In this document: one piece after another, positions 5,830 to 25,544 of the stretch
How positions within the stretch are numbered: the stretch's first letter is position 1
Layout: each line of letters starts with the position of its first letter
Source: a virus
DNA length: 25,544 nt
Direction: 5' to 3' (one strand)
Virus record (IMG/VR): IMGVR_UViG_3300044618_000144
Coordinates: 1-25,544 of that record
Program-made: the position numbers and the translations under genes
The notes under the pieces: model-generated
The model's input: the letters and a program-made list of their open reading frames with translations, nothing else
Told to the model about the DNA's origin: nothing
Databases searched by the model: none

Positions 5830-6951
5830 ATGGAAGGAGAATTTAAAGTAAGAGCAGTAGATTTTGAAGAAAAGTCTGTTGCCGAAATAGAACAACAGTT
5901 ACTTGATGAACATGCTGAAAATACAGGTCAAGTTCAAGATGAGCCAACTGTAGATAAAGTTGATATTAGTGAACCAGTAAATATAGTTGCTGAAACACCA
6001 GTTGAACCTCAAGATATTGAGATAGACGACAACAAAGTTCTTTCATATATTGGAAAAAGATATAACAAAGAGATTAGCAATCTTGATGAATTGTTTGAGC
6101 AAAGATCAAGTAATGAGGATTTAGATCCAGAGGTTGCTACTTATTTGAAATACAAAAAAGAAACTGGTCGTGGAATCGAGGACTTTATGAAGTTAAATAA
6201 AGACTATGATTCTATGGATCAAGACCAATTGTTATTTGAATATCGTAAGAATAAAGATAAATATCTTGATGAAGATGATATTAAATTCGATCTTGATACT
6301 CAGTTTGGATATGATCCAGATTATGAGGAAGAGAAAGAAATAAAGAAAAAACAATTGGCTAAGAAAAAAGAACTCACAAAAGCTAAGGAATATTTCAACA
6401 ACTTAAAAGAACAGTATAAAGTTCCTCTTGAGTCAAGAGAATCTTTTGTTCCACAAGAAGAGAAAGAAGCCTATGAAGCTTACAAGAGTTATAAACAAAC
6501 TGCGAATCAAGCGGATGAAGAGCAGGCAAAAAGGTCAAAGTATTTCACTGAAAAAACTTCTGAGTTGTTTTCTGATAAATTCGAAGGTTTCGGATTCAGT
6601 ATTGATGAAAACAAAAAAGTAGTTTATAAACCAGCTGAAGCACCAGACTTACTGAAAGATCAATCAAATCTTCAGAACTTTGTATCAAAGTTTTTGAACG
6701 ATGAAGGTTATCTAAAGGATGCTGAAGCTTTTCACCGAGCTATTGCAGTGGCTTCAAACCCAGAGAAGTTTGCCAAATTTTTCTACGAGAAAGGTATGAC
6801 AGACGCGGTTGACAATGTTGCCAAAGAGTCTAAAAATATAGATATGACTCGACAAGCAACACAGGTCACACCAGCTCCAGGTTTCAGAGTTACAGCTATA
6901 GATGATGATCGTGGCAACAGATTAGTAATTAGAAACAAAAACAAAAACTAA
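5830..6951 (+). CDS. Putative capsid scaffolding protein
   Basis: A 373-aa, strongly charged, mostly helical protein directly upstream of the major capsid gene. The first 80 residues are acidic and probably disordered (Glu/Asp/Pro/Val). About residues 150-250 are a Lys/Glu-rich coiled-coil segment (EEEKEIKKKQLAKKKELTK). The extreme C terminus turns basic (GNRLVIRNKNKN), as expected for the capsid-binding tail of phage scaffolds. Length, composition and position all fit a scaffold that guides capsid assembly and then leaves the prohead; no sequence motif proves it. Only five bases separate it from the capsid gene, so the two are surely co-transcribed, probably from the box at 5801. The ATG follows TAATAAA, the local start style. 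Confidence 0.72.
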   Translation: MEGEFKVRAVDFEEKSVAEIEQQLLDEHAENTGQVQDEPTVDKVDISEPVNIVAETPVEPQDIEIDDNKVLSYIGKRYNKEISNLDELFEQRSSNEDLDPEVATYLKYKKETGRGIEDFMKLNKDYDSMDQDQLLFEYRKNKDKYLDEDDIKFDLDTQFGYDPDYEEEKEIKKKQLAKKKELTKAKEYFNNLKEQYKVPLESRESFVPQEEKEAYEAYKSYKQTANQADEEQAKRSKYFTEKTSELFSDKFEGFGFSIDENKKVVYKPAEAPDLLKDQSNLQNFVSKFLNDEGYLKDAEAFHRAIAVASNPEKFAKFFYEKGMTDAVDNVAKESKNIDMTRQATQVTPAPGFRVTAIDDDRGNRLVIRNKNKN

Positions 6952-8423: not shown

Positions 8424-9203
8424 ATGGAAAAATTATCAATTAAGAGAATTACTCTCGAACCAAAAGACAGAACTTATATTCTGCGAAACAATCAAGCTCC
8501 TTTAGCTTATTATATAGCTTCAAAGGATGCACCTAGACAACGTCTGCTTTACTATTGTGAAGAGACAAATACAAATCATCCTCTTCGATACGCACGAAAT
8601 TCAAATACACCTTTTCAGGAAGAACAAGATCAAAATGTTATTGTTGAGCCAATTGTATTTGAAGATGGTGTCCTTACAGTTCCTAGAACAAATCCAGTTT
8701 TACAACAATTTTTACATTACCATCCTGGAAATGGAAGTGAGTTTTTTGAATTTGACAATGAAAAAGATGCTGAAGAAGATATTCAATCAATGTATTCAGA
8801 ACTTGATGCACAGTTGGCCGCTAGAGATTTGGCTGCAAATGATTTTAATACACTAGAAGCCGTTGCTCGTATTTTAGTTGGTGGTCAAGTTGATAAAATG
8901 AGTAGCTCTGAGATTAAGAGAGACATGATGATTTATGCGAAGAGATACCCGCAAGATTTCTTGGAGGCTGTAAATGATCCTTCATTAAAGATAAACAATA
9001 TCGCAGCTAGAGCTATATCAGATGGTTATTTGGTTTTAAAGAATCATGGTAAGGATTTGTATTTCAATCTAAAAGAAAATAAAAAGAAACTATTAACTAT
9101 ACCATTTGGCGACAACGCAACATCTGTTTTAGCGTCCTATTTACATTCAGATGAGGGTATTGAGCTATATCAATTCCTAGAAGATAAATTGTCAAATAAT
9201 TAG
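8424..9203 (+). CDS. Conserved phage protein of unknown function after the capsid gene
   Basis: A 259-aa soluble protein. The N-terminal half (about 1-110) holds motifs such as LRYARNSNTPFQEEQ and PIVFEDGVLTVPRTNPVLQQ plus FLHYHPGNG. The middle is acidic and helical (about 112-175), and the C-terminal part (about 200-259) ends in IPFGDNATSVLASYLHSDEG. I recall similar proteins next to capsid genes in aquatic and crAss-like phages, but no biochemical role is known to me. It could be a head-associated, head-completion or DNA-interacting virion protein. No membrane segment or signal peptide is seen. The gene starts only 20 bp after the capsid terminator, and I find no promoter-like box in that gap, so it may depend on readthrough and be expressed well below the capsid protein. 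The ATG follows TATAAA. Confidence 0.85.
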   Translation: MEKLSIKRITLEPKDRTYILRNNQAPLAYYIASKDAPRQRLLYYCEETNTNHPLRYARNSNTPFQEEQDQNVIVEPIVFEDGVLTVPRTNPVLQQFLHYHPGNGSEFFEFDNEKDAEEDIQSMYSELDAQLAARDLAANDFNTLEAVARILVGGQVDKMSSSEIKRDMMIYAKRYPQDFLEAVNDPSLKINNIAARAISDGYLVLKNHGKDLYFNLKENKKKLLTIPFGDNATSVLASYLHSDEGIELYQFLEDKLSNN

Positions 9204-9211
9204 TATATTTG
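9204..9211 (+). promoter_or_regulatory. -7 box (TATATTTG) before the 104-aa gene
   Basis: TATATTTG, an exact TAnnTTTG match, begins immediately after the TAG stop of the 259-aa gene and lies 32 bp before the ATG at 9244. The position fits a dedicated promoter for the short cassette that ends at the terminator at 9583-9609. No convincing -33 element is visible. Confidence 0.55.
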
Positions 9212-9226
9212 CATTGTTATTAATAA

Positions 9227-9240
9227 TTAAAACGTTTTAA
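9227..9240. repeat. 14-bp perfect palindrome before the 104-aa gene
   Basis: TTAAAACGTTTTAA is a perfect palindrome lying three bases upstream of the ATG at 9244 and downstream of the predicted start of transcription. It could be an operator or simply A/T-rich leader sequence. Confidence 0.5.
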
Positions 9241-9243
9241 AAA

Positions 9244-9558
9244 ATGGAAAAATTCTTAAAATTAACTGCTGGATCTAATGTTACACTTCTTAATGCTTCT
9301 AGCATTCAGTTTGTTGCTGCTACATTAGCTAATCCTACATTAGTAGATGTTTTGTATGGTGCTGGTGGCGCTACTGCTGGTTCTGATACTATTCGTATCA
9401 CATCATCTGCAACTGCAACAGCTGCTTCGCAAGCTGCATTTAGAGATGCTATTTATGATGCTATTGAATTAGCTAATAGAGCATCAAGCAACCCTGATTC
9501 ATTTATTGTTCCTGCATTACCTACTGGTATTACTATTGCAAGTGCAGCTTTGAATTAA
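9244..9558 (+). CDS. Small Ala/Thr-rich protein, possible structural or decoration protein
   Basis: A 104-aa protein with a very biased composition (Ala, Thr, Ser, Gly), short beta-like segments (MEKFLKLTAGSNVTLLNAS, SDTIRITSS) and one helical stretch (about 60-78, AAFRDAIYDAIELANRAS). There is no signal peptide or Cys. I do not recognise the family with certainty. The single-gene cassette, flanked by its own promoter-like box and a strong terminator and lying between capsid and neck genes, suggests an abundant structural protein such as a capsid decoration or head fibre component. That is an inference from context and composition. It starts after an A-run, as do most genes here. Confidence 0.8.
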   Translation: MEKFLKLTAGSNVTLLNASSIQFVAATLANPTLVDVLYGAGGATAGSDTIRITSSATATAASQAAFRDAIYDAIELANRASSNPDSFIVPALPTGITIASAALN

Positions 9559-18491: not shown

Positions 18492-21400
18492 ATGCCAAAC
18501 GAAATAAAGCCAGTTATAGTTCAAGACGATGGGATCAATAGATCAATCAAACCTGTTATTGTTGCTGATGATGGAATCAATAAAGTAAAAAAAAAAGAGG
18601 TTTCACAATCAACACAAAAAAACGGAGCTATTTCTTCGGAAGCCTCCAAGACGGAAAATCAAAAGCGTTCGGAATCTTTATCTTCAGTAAATAGATGGGC
18701 TAATGTAACTGAACCAAAGGCTACACCTAGTAAATATAAGACTGATGATTATATTGATGTAATAGAGAATAAACCTCTAAAGAAAAAGAAAGTTGTATCA
18801 GTAAAGCCTGATCAATATGTTCCTGAAGTAAAAGTTACTGAAATTGATGCTCCTACGGAAAAGGAAGCTGAAATAATGATGGAGGAAGATTTCGGTAGAA
18901 AAGAATTCGATGCTTATCAAAATATCAATAAGATAGATAAAAACATTGCTTTCAAAACTGAAGATGAGGCAGTAAAAGAATTAAGAGAAAAATTTAAGGG
19001 AAGTGGATTTATTTTTGAAACCACTGGTGCTGGCAATAAAATAAAAATATCTACATCTACGAATGGTGGATTAACTACAATAAATTCAAAAGAATTTGAG
19101 TTAGTTCCTTCAGCGTTATATGGTCAATCACAGACTGGTATGCCGATTGCTCAATCTGAAGATTTAAACAGATTAAGCAACGATAAATATAATGAGATTG
19201 TTGACTTTATGAGTAAGTCAATACTTAAAAAGACGGATAAAGATTTCTTAAAAAAGGACGTAAAAGATTACGGACAACTTGTTAATCTAATGGCTGACAA
19301 TCCATATAAGTATGGAGAAGAATTTTTAAATCAATATGACACTGATAGATGGTTTGATAACCAATATAAAGATTTAGTAATTGAATCAAAAAGTCTTAAA
19401 AGAGATGAAGATCAACTATTAGCTCAATATGATGAATTTATAAAAAATCCAACTAGTCCAGAACAAGAAGCGGAATTAAAAAATAAAATAAATTCTCTTG
19501 ATGAAAGAAAAAATATACTAAAAAGTAAATACGATGACTTGGGTAGGTTGAATGATAAACTAAAAGTATCGTCAGCTGTATATTATAAAAATAAAGAGAA
19601 ACAAGGAAATACACTAGGTTTAATTTCTAGAAATGTTGCAAGTGGTCTATTTAATATGGGTAAAGCAGTAACTGGAATAACTGCTGACGTAATGCCTTAT
19701 GTGCTTCCAGAGGGATCTTTAATGCCAGATGTTCAAAGAGAAAAATTGAAGGCATCTGGAATGACTGATAATGAAATAAAAGATTATGCATCAAAGCAAC
19801 TTCGAAAGCAAATTGTTCCTGAAATCGGAAAGGGGTTGGTTGATTTAGTTTCATTTGGAACAACTGATGAATACATAAAATCTAAAGATAGAAGCGATTT
19901 AGAAAAAGTTGTATCTTTTCTATCCGAAAGTATAGGAACTGCATTGTCTGGAGGTGGTAATCCAGCATTGCAAAAAGTAGCTTTCTTTAGTCAGTCTTAT
20001 AATGCGATTGAAGATGAAATGAACTCTAGTCAATTTGATGGATTAAATCAATTTGAAAAAAAATTAATATCTGTTCCTTATGCAATGACAATAGGTGCAT
20101 TAGAGAATCTAGGGTTTAAATTTACAACTGGGGCAACAAAAAGTCCACTATTTAATAAGTTTGTAAATAATATAGTTTTTAGAACTTTCTCTAACTTACC
20201 AAAAAATGCATCGGCAACATTAATGCAGAATGAATTAAAAAGAAATACAGCAGCTATGCTAGCTAATGCTGGATTAAGAATAGTAGGTGGAGCTTTGGTA
20301 GAGGGAGCTGTTGAGGGTACTCAACAATTAGATGAAATAGCAATAAAGAATATATCAAATGCTATAACAGATAAAGATTACTTTCAAGATGTTCCTGATA
20401 TTACAACAGCCAAAGGAATTAATCAAGCGATTGGAGTTGCTGCCACTGATGCTTACTATGGTGCTTTAGGCGGCTTGATTATGTCTAGTGGATCTGAATC
20501 AGTTTCAGCCATAAGAGATGGATATAGCAATAAAAAGAGTGATGATGATTTTGCTGTATTTTCTAATTCATTAAAGGATAATAATCTTAGGTCGTCTATT
20601 GAGTCAGATATAAAATCTAAAATAGTAAGTGGAGATATAACAAAAGAAGAGGCAAAGGCTCAGATTGAATCAATGAACAAATCATATTCAATATTGCAGG
20701 CTATACCTGACAACTTAAGTTTAAGAGACCAAAGAGATTCATTTAATTTGATTCTTGAAAAACAAAAGATACAAAAAGAAATAGAAGGGAAAGACCCTGC
20801 TCTCGTTGCTGCTCAAACAGACAGAGTAAACGAGATTAATGATGAACTAAAAATAATAAGTAAAAATGCCGTTAAAGAAAGCACAAAACCAGTCGAAGAA
20901 GTCACAGCAGAAGGCGGTGGCGTTCAATATCAGGGAGTTGAAGAAGGACAACCTGAAATCAGGGAAGGAGAGAGGGCAGTCGGGGAAACCGCGCAGCCAG
21001 AAACAGATCTTGGCAATCGCCCTGTCGAAGGCAGGGGTATCCAAGAAGAAGTAACTCCTGTTGGAGAAGTATCTCTTCCAACCGATGAAATAGGTAGATC
21101 TGTAGGTAGTAAGGAATATAAAGCTGGTGTTAATCAAAAAAAGGGTAGATCTATAACACGAACTACTCCTGATGGAACAAAGATAAGAGGTACATTTAAA
21201 ATTGTTCCAGCTAGTGAATTAATTCCAAGTCATAATCCAAATACATTTAGTAAAAATGAATCGTTTCCTCAAAATAAAGAAGGTAGAACAATAAATGATA
21301 GGGATTATGAAACAGATAAACCAGCACAATCACAAGTAATTGACATAGCTCAAAACATTGATGAAAGAGCTGTTTCTCAAACTCCTATTGTTTCAAAAGA

Positions 21401-24400
21401 AGGAATTGTTTACGATGGAAACAACAGAACGATGAGTAGGCAATTAGCCGCTCAAAATAAAACTGATCAAGAATATATTCAATCTTTAAAAGATCAGGCT
21501 GATATGTATGGTCTTACTGAGGACGATGTTAATTTAATTGAGAATCCAACACTTGTTTTTGAAGTTGAGGAAAACTTGCCATTTGACACAAAGACTATGG
21601 CAATGTTTAATAAGCAAGAGAAGAAAGCTCAAGGTCCTTTGCAAAGAGCTGTTGCTATAAGTAAAAGAATTTCAGATAGAGCTAAAAGACAATTAGCTGA
21701 ATTATATGAAGGTGTAGAAGTTCCAAGTGATGTTACATCTGATCCTAAAAACATGAAGCAAGCTATTGATGTTTTAATTCAAGAGGGTCTAATTCAAACG
21801 GTTGAAATTCCTAGATATGTAGATAAAAATGTAGCTACTCCAGATGGTATAAGTTTTCTTGAAGGGGTGGTAATGGCTGCGAGTTTAAATGAAAATAGTA
21901 TAAGGGAATTGTCTGTTCCTGGAATGGGGGATATTAAAAAAGTAATACTTAAAAACATAGTAGGCTTAATGCAAAATTCCGCAAAAGGAAGCGATAGTCT
22001 TACAAAAGAAATAGCTGGAGCTATACAAATAATTCAAAAAGCAAAGGCATCAAAAATGTACGTAGAGGATTATCTTTCACAATACGATATGTTTGGTGAA
22101 AACCAATATACTGTTGGTGAGATGAGTATGGCTTTATTATTAGATACTAAAAAACCTACGATATTTAAAAATTTCTTAACCAACTATAATGAAAATGTAG
22201 GTGTTGAAAATATATTTGGGGAAGATACAAGTAAGGAAGCAATCTTAAACAATACAATAAGTGAATTAATAAGTGATTATGGAAAAATCAAAGAAAATCT
22301 TGAGGTCATTGCCGCAGAACGTGCTAAGCAAGTTGTCGAAAGTACTGAAGAGGTTAAACCAGCAGAAACAATCGAAGAAGTAAAAAAACTAGATGTAACT
22401 GATAAAACAAATTTACAGAAAGTTCAATCTTTTTTAGATAAGTTAGATAATGATCTTGACAAGTTTGGTAAAGAAACACTTGGTGTTAACTTACCAGTTG
22501 CTGTTGCAAAAGCAGTTGTTAAAACATTAAAGGCTTTAGTTAATGCAGGCGTATCTTTAGAGCAAGCTTTAAAACAAGCGGCAGAGATTCATAATGTTAG
22601 TGAGGTTGATATAGTTGACTCATTTGAGAAAATTAGAAAGAAAGAAAGTGAAGCAAGTAAGGCTGCTAAAAAAATATCTAAACCTATTAAAAAGAAAGTT
22701 ACTGTAAATGAATATACAGCACTAAAAGACCAGATTAGACTGGAAGCAAGAGCTGCTCGTGACGCTAAGGGTGACTTAAATACCAAGAGAAAAGCACTTG
22801 CTACTGCTATTAGTGGTATGGTTAATACTGGCAAAATAAAAACTACTCAGGCTAGCGTATTGATTAAAAGAATTAGCAACCTTAACTTAGATAATCCAGT
22901 AATGGTTGAACGATTTGTTAACTATGCTGAGAGAGTATTTGAGAAAGCTGACTATCAACAAACATTAGATAATGCATTCTCAATAAGAAAGTCCATCCGT
23001 AAAGCATTAAAGACTGACAACCAAGCTGAGGTAGTTGGAATGGCTAAGGAGTTTGCAAAGATTGATCCGTCAATGGTTGAGGACATTGATGCCTATCTAG
23101 AAATTGCTGATAAAGTCAAAAATGCTGTTAAGCCATCACGTACTAAGGGCGAAGAAGTTGTATTAAAACAAGCTGCAAATATTTCTGAAATTTCTGAATA
23201 TTCTAAAAAAGAAATCGAACGTCAAGAACAAATTAAAGCAGATGAATTTTTTGCTGCTTATAATGAAGTTGAAGGTTTATCAAAAGACATGTCTTTAAAA
23301 GAAATGAAAGACATAATAAACTCGCTGAAAGAAAATCCAGAGGCTGAGCCTGATAAACAGGGAAAAGTAATGGATTTCTTAAAAGAAAAGATGTCAAAAA
23401 TGTCAGATACTTTGCAGTCAATGTTTAAAGATGGTATTGATCCAATGACTGGAGAGAAGATTGAAATTGATGAAAAACAAAAAGAACTAATCGGTCGAGC
23501 ATTAAAAATTGACTTAAATGAAATGTCAATTAGAGAGGCCATTAAGATAGTTGAAGGTGTTGACAATTTCTTAACTAATCAAATTACAAGTGGTCTTGAG
23601 GCATCTGTTAGTTCTTATGAAGGAGCAATGAATAATAAACAATTGGTTCAAAAAGGCTTTAAGGCTAAAAGTCTAAAATTCTTGAAAAGCGGAAAAATAG
23701 GAAGAGGTTACACTGAACAATTGTTCTCACTTCCACTTATGATTGAAAAAATGTTTGGCGGTATAAACAAATCAATCGAAGTAATGAATAAGTGGGGATT
23801 AAGTAAATTAATTAATGGTGTAAATAAAGCTAACAAACAATTTAGCACTATTATTGATTCATATACAAAGCAACCATTTTATTCTACAAAAAATGCCCTT
23901 GGGGTTTATGTTATGAATAAAGGCTTTATGGATGCTGAAAATGTATATGAAAGAGCCATGATTGCAGAACTTAAAAGAAGTATTTTTGGAACTGAAGCTG
24001 AAATGAAAACTGAATTTGAAAATAGAGTTAAAATATTAAAGGATTCAATTGATTTATTAATAGAAGAAGGTAATTCAAAAGAAAAGAAGATGGGAGAATT
24101 GTACAAGAAAGTGTACAACAAACTTAATGTAGATTCAATGGATATGAGCGTTATTGAATCTAATGCATCTGATAATAACTTAGCGTCTGTAAATTGGTGG
24201 ATTAATGAATGGTCTAAGTACAAACCAGAACTTTTTGATGTAAGTTTATCCGTTTACAATACTATGCTAACTGCTGATTTGAATTATACTACACGTACAT
24301 TAAAAAATTTATCTTCAAAAGACACAGGGCTTGATGAAAATTTAGTTAGTCAGAATGGTGCTTTTACTTCATCTCTTAATAACATTGATAAAAATAAGTC

Positions 24401-25544
24401 AGGTGTTTTAATGGAAACAACAGGTAAAAGAAAATCAAATCAATATATCAGTCTTGATTTTGATGCTAATAATGCAAAAGCTTTAAAGGCTGCACTTGTT
24501 GATATTAATACTGCTTCAGCTATTAGACAAGTTGATGGATTTATGAAATCTAATTCATTCAAGCAATTAATTCCTGATTCAGATGATAGAAAAATAATTG
24601 AGAGAAGAATAAGTACATATATAAGAAGAGCGAAAGGTAAAAATATTGTACCGTCTGATACAATGCAAGATGTTGAGAGATTTGGAAACTTTATAACTGC
24701 TCTTGGTGTAGGTAAGGCATTAGGTGGTGTAAGTCAAGCTGTAACTCAGACAATCCCAGTTATGCTTAGTACTGCTGCAAATACAAGTAGATTTGATATT
24801 GCTGACGCTGAATTTAATGCGTGGTTAGATGATTTGGGTGTATCTACATCAAATCGTGGATTAGAATCACAAACAACAGTAGAATCAATTGATAGAAAAC
24901 TAGAGGCATCAAATGGAAATACACAAAAAATAATAAAAGGAGTTGAAGAATTAAGTCAATTTTACTTAAAAATATTCTTATCAAAACCTGATGTTTTTGT
25001 TGCTCGTTCAGCATTTAAGTCATACTACTTGCAAAATTTAAAGCGTAGAGGAATAAGCACTGATATTGATTGGAAAACACATAAGCCAGATATGGAAGCA
25101 GCTGAATATGCTGACGCTATGGTTAATAGACAGCAGAACGTATCTGATCCATTGTTAGCAGGTGAATTCTTAGCTAGTGATGAACCTATGAGAAAAATAA
25201 GCAGAAAGGGAGTTTTCCCATTTGCTTCATTTATTTTGAATCAAAAAGCAAGGATGTATAACGACCTTAGCACAGTTTTTAGTGATACTGCAACAAAAGA
25301 AGATAAGATAGCGGCGGCTAAATCTTTGGCAGGTCTTGCAGTTGAATTAGCTGCATTTCAATTAATTGGTTTTGGAATAAGAAGATTATATGATTCAATT
25401 GCAGCTTCATTATTAGGAGATGATGACGATGAGGAAGCAAAGAAAAAGAAAATGATTAACGCTACTAAATATCCAATTAAAAGTATTGTTAATGATATTG
25501 TATCTCCTTTACCTGGAATGACTGACAAATATGTAACATGGGGA
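18492..25544 (+). CDS. Giant polyvalent internal virion protein with ParB/DdrB-like domain (3' end outside window)
   Basis: One frame is open from ATG 18492 to the right edge: 2351 codons with no stop. Residues 7-31 are a tandem repeat (KPVIVQDDGIN / KPVIVADDGIN). Hydrophobic Gly/Ala segments lie at about 585-615 and 640-672, a charged helix at about 692-797, and a low-complexity acidic linker at about 797-862. About 895-1085 resembles a ParB/DdrB-like domain (VYDGNNRTMSRQLAA, Y974-R979). About 1292-1375 and 1400-1540 recall helical segments of large phage 'polyvalent' proteins. The C-terminal region has GVFPFASFILNQ (2240-2251) and a hydrophobic stretch at about 2275-2308. Such proteins are packed in the capsid and injected with DNA to act early in the host. 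I see no polymerase signature. A separate out-of-frame gene overlaps the linker. Confidence 0.85.
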   Translation, partial: MPNEIKPVIVQDDGINRSIKPVIVADDGINKVKKKEVSQSTQKNGAISSEASKTENQKRSESLSSVNRWANVTEPKATPSKYKTDDYIDVIENKPLKKKKVVSVKPDQYVPEVKVTEIDAPTEKEAEIMMEEDFGRKEFDAYQNINKIDKNIAFKTEDEAVKELREKFKGSGFIFETTGAGNKIKISTSTNGGLTTINSKEFELVPSALYGQSQTGMPIAQSEDLNRLSNDKYNEIVDFMSKSILKKTDKDFLKKDVKDYGQLVNLMADNPYKYGEEFLNQYDTDRWFDNQYKDLVIESKSLKRDEDQLLAQYDEFIKNPTSPEQEAELKNKINSLDERKNILKSKYDDLGRLNDKLKVSSAVYYKNKEKQGNTLGLISRNVASGLFNMGKAVTGITADVMPYVLPEGSLMPDVQREKLKASGMTDNEIKDYASKQLRKQIVPEIGKGLVDLVSFGTTDEYIKSKDRSDLEKVVSFLSESIGTALSGGGNPALQKVAFFSQSYNAIEDEMNSSQFDGLNQFEKKLISVPYAMTIGALENLGFKFTTGATKSPLFNKFVNNIVFRTFSNLPKNASATLMQNELKRNTAAMLANAGLRIVGGALVEGAVEGTQQLDEIAIKNISNAITDKDYFQDVPDITTAKGINQAIGVAATDAYYGALGGLIMSSGSESVSAIRDGYSNKKSDDDFAVFSNSLKDNNLRSSIESDIKSKIVSGDITKEEAKAQIESMNKSYSILQAIPDNLSLRDQRDSFNLILEKQKIQKEIEGKDPALVAAQTDRVNEINDELKIISKNAVKESTKPVEEVTAEGGGVQYQGVEEGQPEIREGERAVGETAQPETDLGNRPVEGRGIQEEVTPVGEVSLPTDEIGRSVGSKEYKAGVNQKKGRSITRTTPDGTKIRGTFKIVPASELIPSHNPNTFSKNESFPQNKEGRTINDRDYETDKPAQSQVIDIAQNIDERAVSQTPIVSKEGIVYDGNNRTMSRQLAAQNKTDQEYIQSLKDQADMYGLTEDDVNLIENPTLVFEVEENLPFDTKTMAMFNKQEKKAQGPLQRAVAISKRISDRAKRQLAELYEGVEVPSDVTSDPKNMKQAIDVLIQEGLIQTVEIPRYVDKNVATPDGISFLEGVVMAASLNENSIRELSVPGMGDIKKVILKNIVGLMQNSAKGSDSLTKEIAGAIQIIQKAKASKMYVEDYLSQYDMFGENQYTVGEMSMALLLDTKKPTIFKNFLTNYNENVGVENIFGEDTSKEAILNNTISELISDYGKIKENLEVIAAERAKQVVESTEEVKPAETIEEVKKLDVTDKTNLQKVQSFLDKLDNDLDKFGKETLGVNLPVAVAKAVVKTLKALVNAGVSLEQALKQAAEIHNVSEVDIVDSFEKIRKKESEASKAAKKISKPIKKKVTVNEYTALKDQIRLEARAARDAKGDLNTKRKALATAISGMVNTGKIKTTQASVLIKRISNLNLDNPVMVERFVNYAERVFEKADYQQTLDNAFSIRKSIRKALKTDNQAEVVGMAKEFAKIDPSMVEDIDAYLEIADKVKNAVKPSRTKGEEVVLKQAANISEISEYSKKEIERQEQIKADEFFAAYNEVEGLSKDMSLKEMKDIINSLKENPEAEPDKQGKVMDFLKEKMSKMSDTLQSMFKDGIDPMTGEKIEIDEKQKELIGRALKIDLNEMSIREAIKIVEGVDNFLTNQITSGLEASVSSYEGAMNNKQLVQKGFKAKSLKFLKSGKIGRGYTEQLFSLPLMIEKMFGGINKSIEVMNKWGLSKLINGVNKANKQFSTIIDSYTKQPFYSTKNALGVYVMNKGFMDAENVYERAMIAELKRSIFGTEAEMKTEFENRVKILKDSIDLLIEEGNSKEKKMGELYKKVYNKLNVDSMDMSVIESNASDNNLASVNWWINEWSKYKPELFDVSLSVYNTMLTADLNYTTRTLKNLSSKDTGLDENLVSQNGAFTSSLNNIDKNKSGVLMETTGKRKSNQYISLDFDANNAKALKAALVDINTASAIRQVDGFMKSNSFKQLIPDSDDRKIIERRISTYIRRAKGKNIVPSDTMQDVERFGNFITALGVGKALGGVSQAVTQTIPVMLSTAANTSRFDIADAEFNAWLDDLGVSTSNRGLESQTTVESIDRKLEASNGNTQKIIKGVEELSQFYLKIFLSKPDVFVARSAFKSYYLQNLKRRGISTDIDWKTHKPDMEAAEYADAMVNRQQNVSDPLLAGEFLASDEPMRKISRKGVFPFASFILNQKARMYNDLSTVFSDTATKEDKIAAAKSLAGLAVELAAFQLIGFGIRRLYDSIAASLLGDDDDEEAKKKKMINATKYPIKSIVNDIVSPLPGMTDKYVTWG
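20866..21054 (+). CDS. Nested small basic protein, out of frame inside the giant gene
   Basis: A 62-aa reading frame in the +1 frame relative to the giant gene. The protein (MPLKKAQNQSKKSQQKAVAF, then NIRELKKDN, and LAIALSKAGVSKKK at the end) strongly resembles a small basic phage family that I recall as MPLKKGxSxKAVSxNIxxLxxEG...KQAxAIALSxAGxSKKK, of unknown function. Lys/Arg/Gln dominate, and it could bind nucleic acid. The ATG follows AAGTAAAA, the same A-rich start style as other genes. Third positions are about 77% G/C (47 of 61 codons), very unlike its neighbours. The host frame here is only an acidic low-complexity linker (797-862). That pattern favours a real overlapping or overprinted gene over a chance frame. 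Expression is unproven. Confidence 0.65.
   Translation: MPLKKAQNQSKKSQQKAVAFNIRELKKDNLKSGKERGQSGKPRSQKQILAIALSKAGVSKKK

Follow-up and report, generated by a model that had tools for sequence, protein, structure and literature searches.

The arrangement studied here, a small phage gene lying inside another gene, has its nearest precedent in embedded spanin genes, in which Rz1 is encoded within Rz and for which a read-through route to embedding has been proposed (PMC6139136). Like the gene described here, an embedded spanin gene is small and complete, lies in a shifted frame and escapes gene callers. The products differ, since spanins are lipoproteins whereas the nested products here are basic and soluble-looking. 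The spanin survey reported no family that was both embedded and separated, and it described no exchange of unrelated occupants (PMC6139136), whereas the DUF6496 family considered here occurs both nested and free, in a slot that exchanges its occupant. Viral overprinting, as in PhiX174 E and K, likewise involves same-strand, +1 internal overlaps with one disordered product; one frame is ancestral, and the other arises de novo and is usually without homologues (PMC8227390). Overprinted pairs of that sort usually have the newer protein in the small frame; in the present locus a known family occupies the small frame, and it is the host linker that looks overprinted.

The host gene resembles phage polyvalent proteins in its DdrB-like ParB domain and its multidomain, module-swapping build; the words 'overlapping' and 'frameshift' are absent from the text describing those proteins (PMC5512222). 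It can also be likened, judging by part of their published description, to the crAss001 cargo proteins gp45-gp50, large crassvirus proteins carried in the virion, and that part of the account describes no nested gene (PMC10172136). The nested products themselves match small proteins of DUF6496 (PF20106) and, weakly, of phrog_1375, and free DUF6496 members carry stops in the frame that nested copies keep open. A literature search returned no publication on DUF6496 and no account of a swappable nested-gene slot. The usual explanation of overlapping genes is the birth of new proteins within old ones; the evidence here points the other way, to an old gene kept within a host gene that must adapt, in a place that can be refilled by an unrelated gene. 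The locus thus offers a clear multi-genome case of how existing genes become nested and of the recoding needed.

The nested gene and its giant host

The window (the whole 25,544-nucleotide stretch of DNA analysed) comes from a crAss-like environmental phage, which its virion module places in Crassvirales (muzzle match PF25731, E=1.9e-19, profile search). Terminase, portal and capsid families were also matched among its genes, and its major capsid protein (MCP) is 65% identical to that of MW202828 and 51% identical to those of Flavobacterium elemoviruses. The giant host gene encodes a polyvalent-type protein, as judged by a multidomain architecture that includes the DdrB-like ParB domain PF18763. 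The window and the record both end at 25544, inside this gene (ORF 18492..>25544). The features are:

5830..6951, plus strand: gene for a 373-aa protein, located between the portal and MCP genes; the homologue in relatives hosts a second nested family
18492..25544, plus strand: polyvalent-type giant host gene, its ORF open at the window end
19965..20864, plus strand: last 300 residues of the giant's N-module, the end of which marks the slot (alignment A2, scan, profile search)
20846..20865, plus strand: A-rich start context of the nested gene (5.15 bits)
20865..21056, plus strand: giant stretch overlapping the nested gene, an acidic E/G-rich linker, near-neutral in sequence and stop-free
20866..21054, plus strand: nested gene for a 62-aa DUF6496-family protein, ATG to TAA, in the +1 frame of the giant (family match, 40 nested loci, codon-position and dN/dS signature)
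21171..21557, plus strand: DdrB-like ParB domain of the giant, residues 894-1022, directly past the slot (PF18763, E=9e-12)

The initial annotation had described a complete ORF of 62 aa, in +1 relative to the giant frame, that resembles an established small basic phage family. The ORF was found exactly as quoted (20866-21054, ATG to TAA), and the resemblance was borne out by a match to PF20106 (DUF6496) at 31.6 bits against a curated cut-off of 24 (E=2.1e-7). The protein also matches phrog_2423 (E=0.0018), has a pI of 11.0, and aligns over its full length with free copies from L013, L056, L058, L060, L020 and L033 (alignment A1). The giant reads the same stretch as the predicted Glu/Gly-rich linker (14 E and 10 G in 64 residues, pI 4.3). 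A search of NCBIfam gave no match, and GenBank phages queried with the DUF6496 protein gave a weak match only. Two scans of viral contigs, together with the window, yielded 40 loci (39 distinct nested sequences) at which a DUF6496 ORF lies nested in this frame; many other copies are free-standing. Most nested hosts have homologues of the last 300 residues of the giant's N-module (alignment, scan, profile search). We consider it very probable from these sequence comparisons that the ORF is a genuine, separately translated DUF6496 gene nested in a crAss-like giant gene, likely a former free neighbour that was recoded and now occupies an exchangeable slot. A hidden gene slot thus appears to exist here that is not visible in ordinary annotation.

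Identity as an embedded spanin was rejected, the nested product having no lipoprotein or transmembrane signal; by eye, its sequence is lysine-rich and has neither a lipobox nor a hydrophobic stretch. A search of genome contigs returned two metagenome-assembled contigs only. One DUF6496 relative, 67% identical to the window protein, lies on a contig binned as Candidatus Fokinia solitaria (L161, CAMCJK010000058.1), possibly a misbinned phage contig.

Free relatives, recoding and origin

Free-standing homologues of the nested protein are present in L013, L020, L033, L056-L062, L092, L095, L098 and others. By eye, the free genes in L092, L095 and L098 lie near lysis-type genes (lysozyme-, spanin- or holin-like).

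A stop arises in the host frame if a small-frame codon ends in T before AA, AG or GA. Such T-ending codons number 0/955 in nested DUF6496 copies, compared with 57/231 in free copies and 929/2555 in window genes, and random synonymous recodings of eight nested proteins keep the host frame open with a probability of at most 0.0015. Lysine is written as AAG at 81% in nested copies but at 34% in the giant flank and 33% in free copies, so that much of the host reading becomes glutamate. Stop-avoiding codon endings and AAG lysine together draw an acidic linker from a basic protein and make nesting tolerable; the sequences show the wobble positions of the nested gene recoded in this way, the host frame staying open and yielding an acidic, flexible linker. 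The same signature supplies a search rule for more such genes, namely to look for ORFs that are rich in lysine and free of T-ending codons ahead of AA, AG or GA. Correlation of codon usage was discarded as an indicator of the older frame, being uninformative because both frames depart from the genome.

The initial annotation had further proposed that an existing small gene was captured and read through, leaving the linker as the overprinted product. Free homologues, a drifting giant frame and the unfused gene order of L060 support this. The order in L060 is a homologue of the giant N-part (E about 6e-12 to L016), then a gene for 433 aa, then DUF6496 as a free gene, then a C-part homologue (E about 9e-7). 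Most likely an originally free-standing neighbour was engulfed by read-through of the gene upstream of it, which in most lineages extended into the following gene as well. At L016:8116-10386 the host ORF stops 66 residues beyond the nested one and is followed by separate genes, a possible intermediate between read-through and fusion. The 433-aa gene between the N-part and DUF6496 in L060 is not predicted by a simple read-through model, and the L060 arrangement may have come about by denesting; trees for the nesting events have few alignment columns and fix neither their count nor their direction.

The reverse history, in which the small protein was born de novo within the linker and later escaped to become free-standing, would follow the usual account of viral overlapping genes (PMC8227390), and DUF6496 trees leave the family unrooted. 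We regard it as unlikely, because free copies sit in unrelated gene contexts (for example L033, L098 and L108), because they lack the codon bias that opens the host frame, and because it is the small frame that is constrained while the host frame is near-neutral.

For the captured gene we envisage translation by internal initiation on the giant mRNA at the A-rich start. The gene-like start context noted in the initial annotation was confirmed with a matrix derived from gene starts, on which the nested start scores 5.15 bits (medians: genes 4.08, background -3.82). Both frames lie one base apart on the same mRNA, so ribosomal frameshifting from the giant could in principle reach the small frame and produce a fusion with no separate protein; this is very unlikely, since the start context is gene-like and almost every copy retains an ATG and an MPL/MPF start, as free genes do.

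Selection in the small frame

Comparison of giant homologues for this insert found the small frame intact in the 40 nested loci, with the giant frame drifting. Among 20 nested DUF6496 copies, differences at the three small-frame codon positions were 0.23/0.20/0.38, in the same order in every identity bin. The small-frame third position is the giant's first and the small-frame second is the giant's wobble; coding in the giant frame only would make the small second position the most variable, yet it varies least, so the small frame is constrained. Purifying selection in the +1 frame, which the initial annotation had suggested testing for, is visible in a pairwise dN/dS of 0.26 for the small frame versus 0.90 for the giant (pairs not independent), each conditioned on nonsynonymous change in the other frame, with only 52 sites synonymous in both, too few for a four-way table. 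In 190/190 pairs (again not independent) similarity was higher for the small protein than for the host peptide. In the comparison of the window with L003, identity at giant third positions rises from 67% upstream to 97% within the overlap, and between L005 and L006 nucleotide identity is 54% and 43% in the flanks and 97% in the overlap.

ORF length was rejected as a sign of significance, because 132 giant genes contain 605 alternative-frame ORFs of at least 35 aa. Among alternative-frame ORFs in these giants, 103 were more conserved than the host, 94 of them (94/103) in DUF6496 or the second family described below, and two further more-conserved ORFs resemble the second family; the 73 that were not more conserved than the host included none from either family. 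Since alternative-frame ORFs of such length are common, the small ORF could be imagined as a chance by-product of a low-complexity linker with the giant frame alone coding. That reading is barely tenable, as substitutions gather at the small third position and spare the giant's wobble, free-standing homologues exist, and the same signature recurs in two unrelated families.

Low-complexity alternative-frame ORFs (MKNSKQQQ...LSKKKQLQIL) farther along giants also seem more conserved than the host frame, and may reflect a composition effect or another nested gene:

L008:10193-10333, L059:10547-10651, L093:7580-7687, L017:10631-10747, L096:10631-10741, L153:9487-9678, L015:5513-5635: low-complexity alternative-frame ORFs

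Exchange of occupants and a second host gene

A search with the end of the giant N-module showed that most relatives lacking DUF6496 have a different ORF in its place and frame, MPFKSKQQVKYLYSQKPELAEKWRKE..LPKKV. This second family (MPFKSK...) is also small and basic. Homology to DUF6496 was considered and is unsupported (hhalign probability 1.4%); its match to phrog_1375 is weak (E 9.6e-5 to 0.06 by member; no match for the L148 type). In 22 distinct copies within giants, codon-position differences were 0.28/0.17/0.39, the small protein was more alike than the host in 230/231 pairs, and T-ending codons before AA, AG or GA numbered 0/463. A divergent occupant (MPYKSEAQRKFFHANQ...) of the same slot, perhaps a third type, was seen at L148:8854-9000.

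Giant sequence in the window and L110 is 90% identical as far as 20877, which takes in the first 12 bases of the ORF, and 86% identical again from 21040, where the final 15 bases of the ORF begin; the ORF differs in between:

20866..20877, plus strand: left shared end of the slot, where identity with L110 reaches its limit
21040..21054, plus strand: right shared end of the slot, the last codons and stop of the nested gene, where identity with L110 resumes

As read from this alignment, the nested ORF alone is swapped between the two phages, and the shared ends suggest exchange by homologous recombination at the common first and last codons. The nested gene behaves as the constrained unit, exchangeable whole for an unrelated small basic gene. 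In L132 a second-family ORF fills the slot (8875-9006), with a DUF6496 C-terminal remnant about 200 bases downstream (9199-9261); L132 and L059 are one phage, and the arrangement looks like an ongoing replacement or an old exchange. This remnant, the L060 order and the short L016 host fit capture by read-through, then exchange.

A second host of this family, again with the nested ORF in +1, is the gene between portal and MCP, whose product of about 378-428 aa is homologous to that of window 5830-6951; this arrangement was found at 25 loci (21 of them distinct), and the position of the host gene suggests a possible scaffold.

L193, L194, L196-L198, L216, L220-L222, L225-L227, L229-L237, L239-L242: second family in the portal-MCP gene, near the host N-terminus

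Codon-position differences in these copies were 0.25/0.19/0.32, and the small protein was more alike in 188/210 pairs. No second-family copy was found in the window. By these comparisons the slot takes two unrelated families, one of them also nested in a second virion-region gene, which goes beyond the initial annotation. On balance we favour the view that these are dual-coding cassettes, stop-free in the host frame, which swap between unrelated small basic families and lodge in at least two virion-region host genes, so that an existing gene may ride inside another without breaking it. Conservation as a DNA or RNA element (a recombination site, or a packaging or regulatory signal) would suit a sharp identity island at the border of exchanged modules, but is scarcely credible when conservation tracks small-frame codon positions, two unrelated sequences fill the slot, and the second family is also used in the portal-MCP gene.

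The 21 DUF6496 records have one copy each and no second-family match. Of a further 33 records, 31 hold a single second-family copy and lack DUF6496; L060 has the free DUF6496 gene and L140 has neither. The two families were found together in no tested genome (records may be incomplete), a mutual exclusion which suggests that they may do the same job. The L140 giant has the N-module, and neither nested family occurs anywhere in its 55.5-kb record.

Given the small size and strong basicity of the two products, and the location of their host genes among the virion genes, we tentatively raise the possibility that the small proteins bind nucleic acid and are virion-related, made or packaged with the head. 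The predicted DUF6496 model is a confident two-helix structure (pLDDT 88), and a fold search of the small protein against the PDB and viral models gave nothing at E<=0.001.

The annotation of cultured phages omits a conserved small gene that is present once per genome in almost every record tested. As the initial annotation had anticipated for genes of this kind, copies in cultured elemoviruses and MW202828 are unannotated. In Flavobacterium phage elemoE 6-9C, MPFKSKAQMKACYSQDNPKWDCKKWSKETPSKKSLPNKVKKK is nested in gp18:

NC_055854.1 52512-52637 (L077:22513-22638): second-family ORF, unannotated, in the elemovirus giant gene
MW202828.1 (L075:35956-36084): similar second-family ORF, unannotated, in the MW202828 giant gene

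The part of the Cellulophaga phage Calle_3 sequence inspected contained no convincing nested copy. The nested second-family ORF occurs in 68 Flavobacterium elemovirus records, and its presence in cultured phages makes the finding testable. Between the elemovirus and MW202828, only 131/601 bases align, covering the nested ORF, and over 20 codons the small frame is 85% identical and the host frame 55%.
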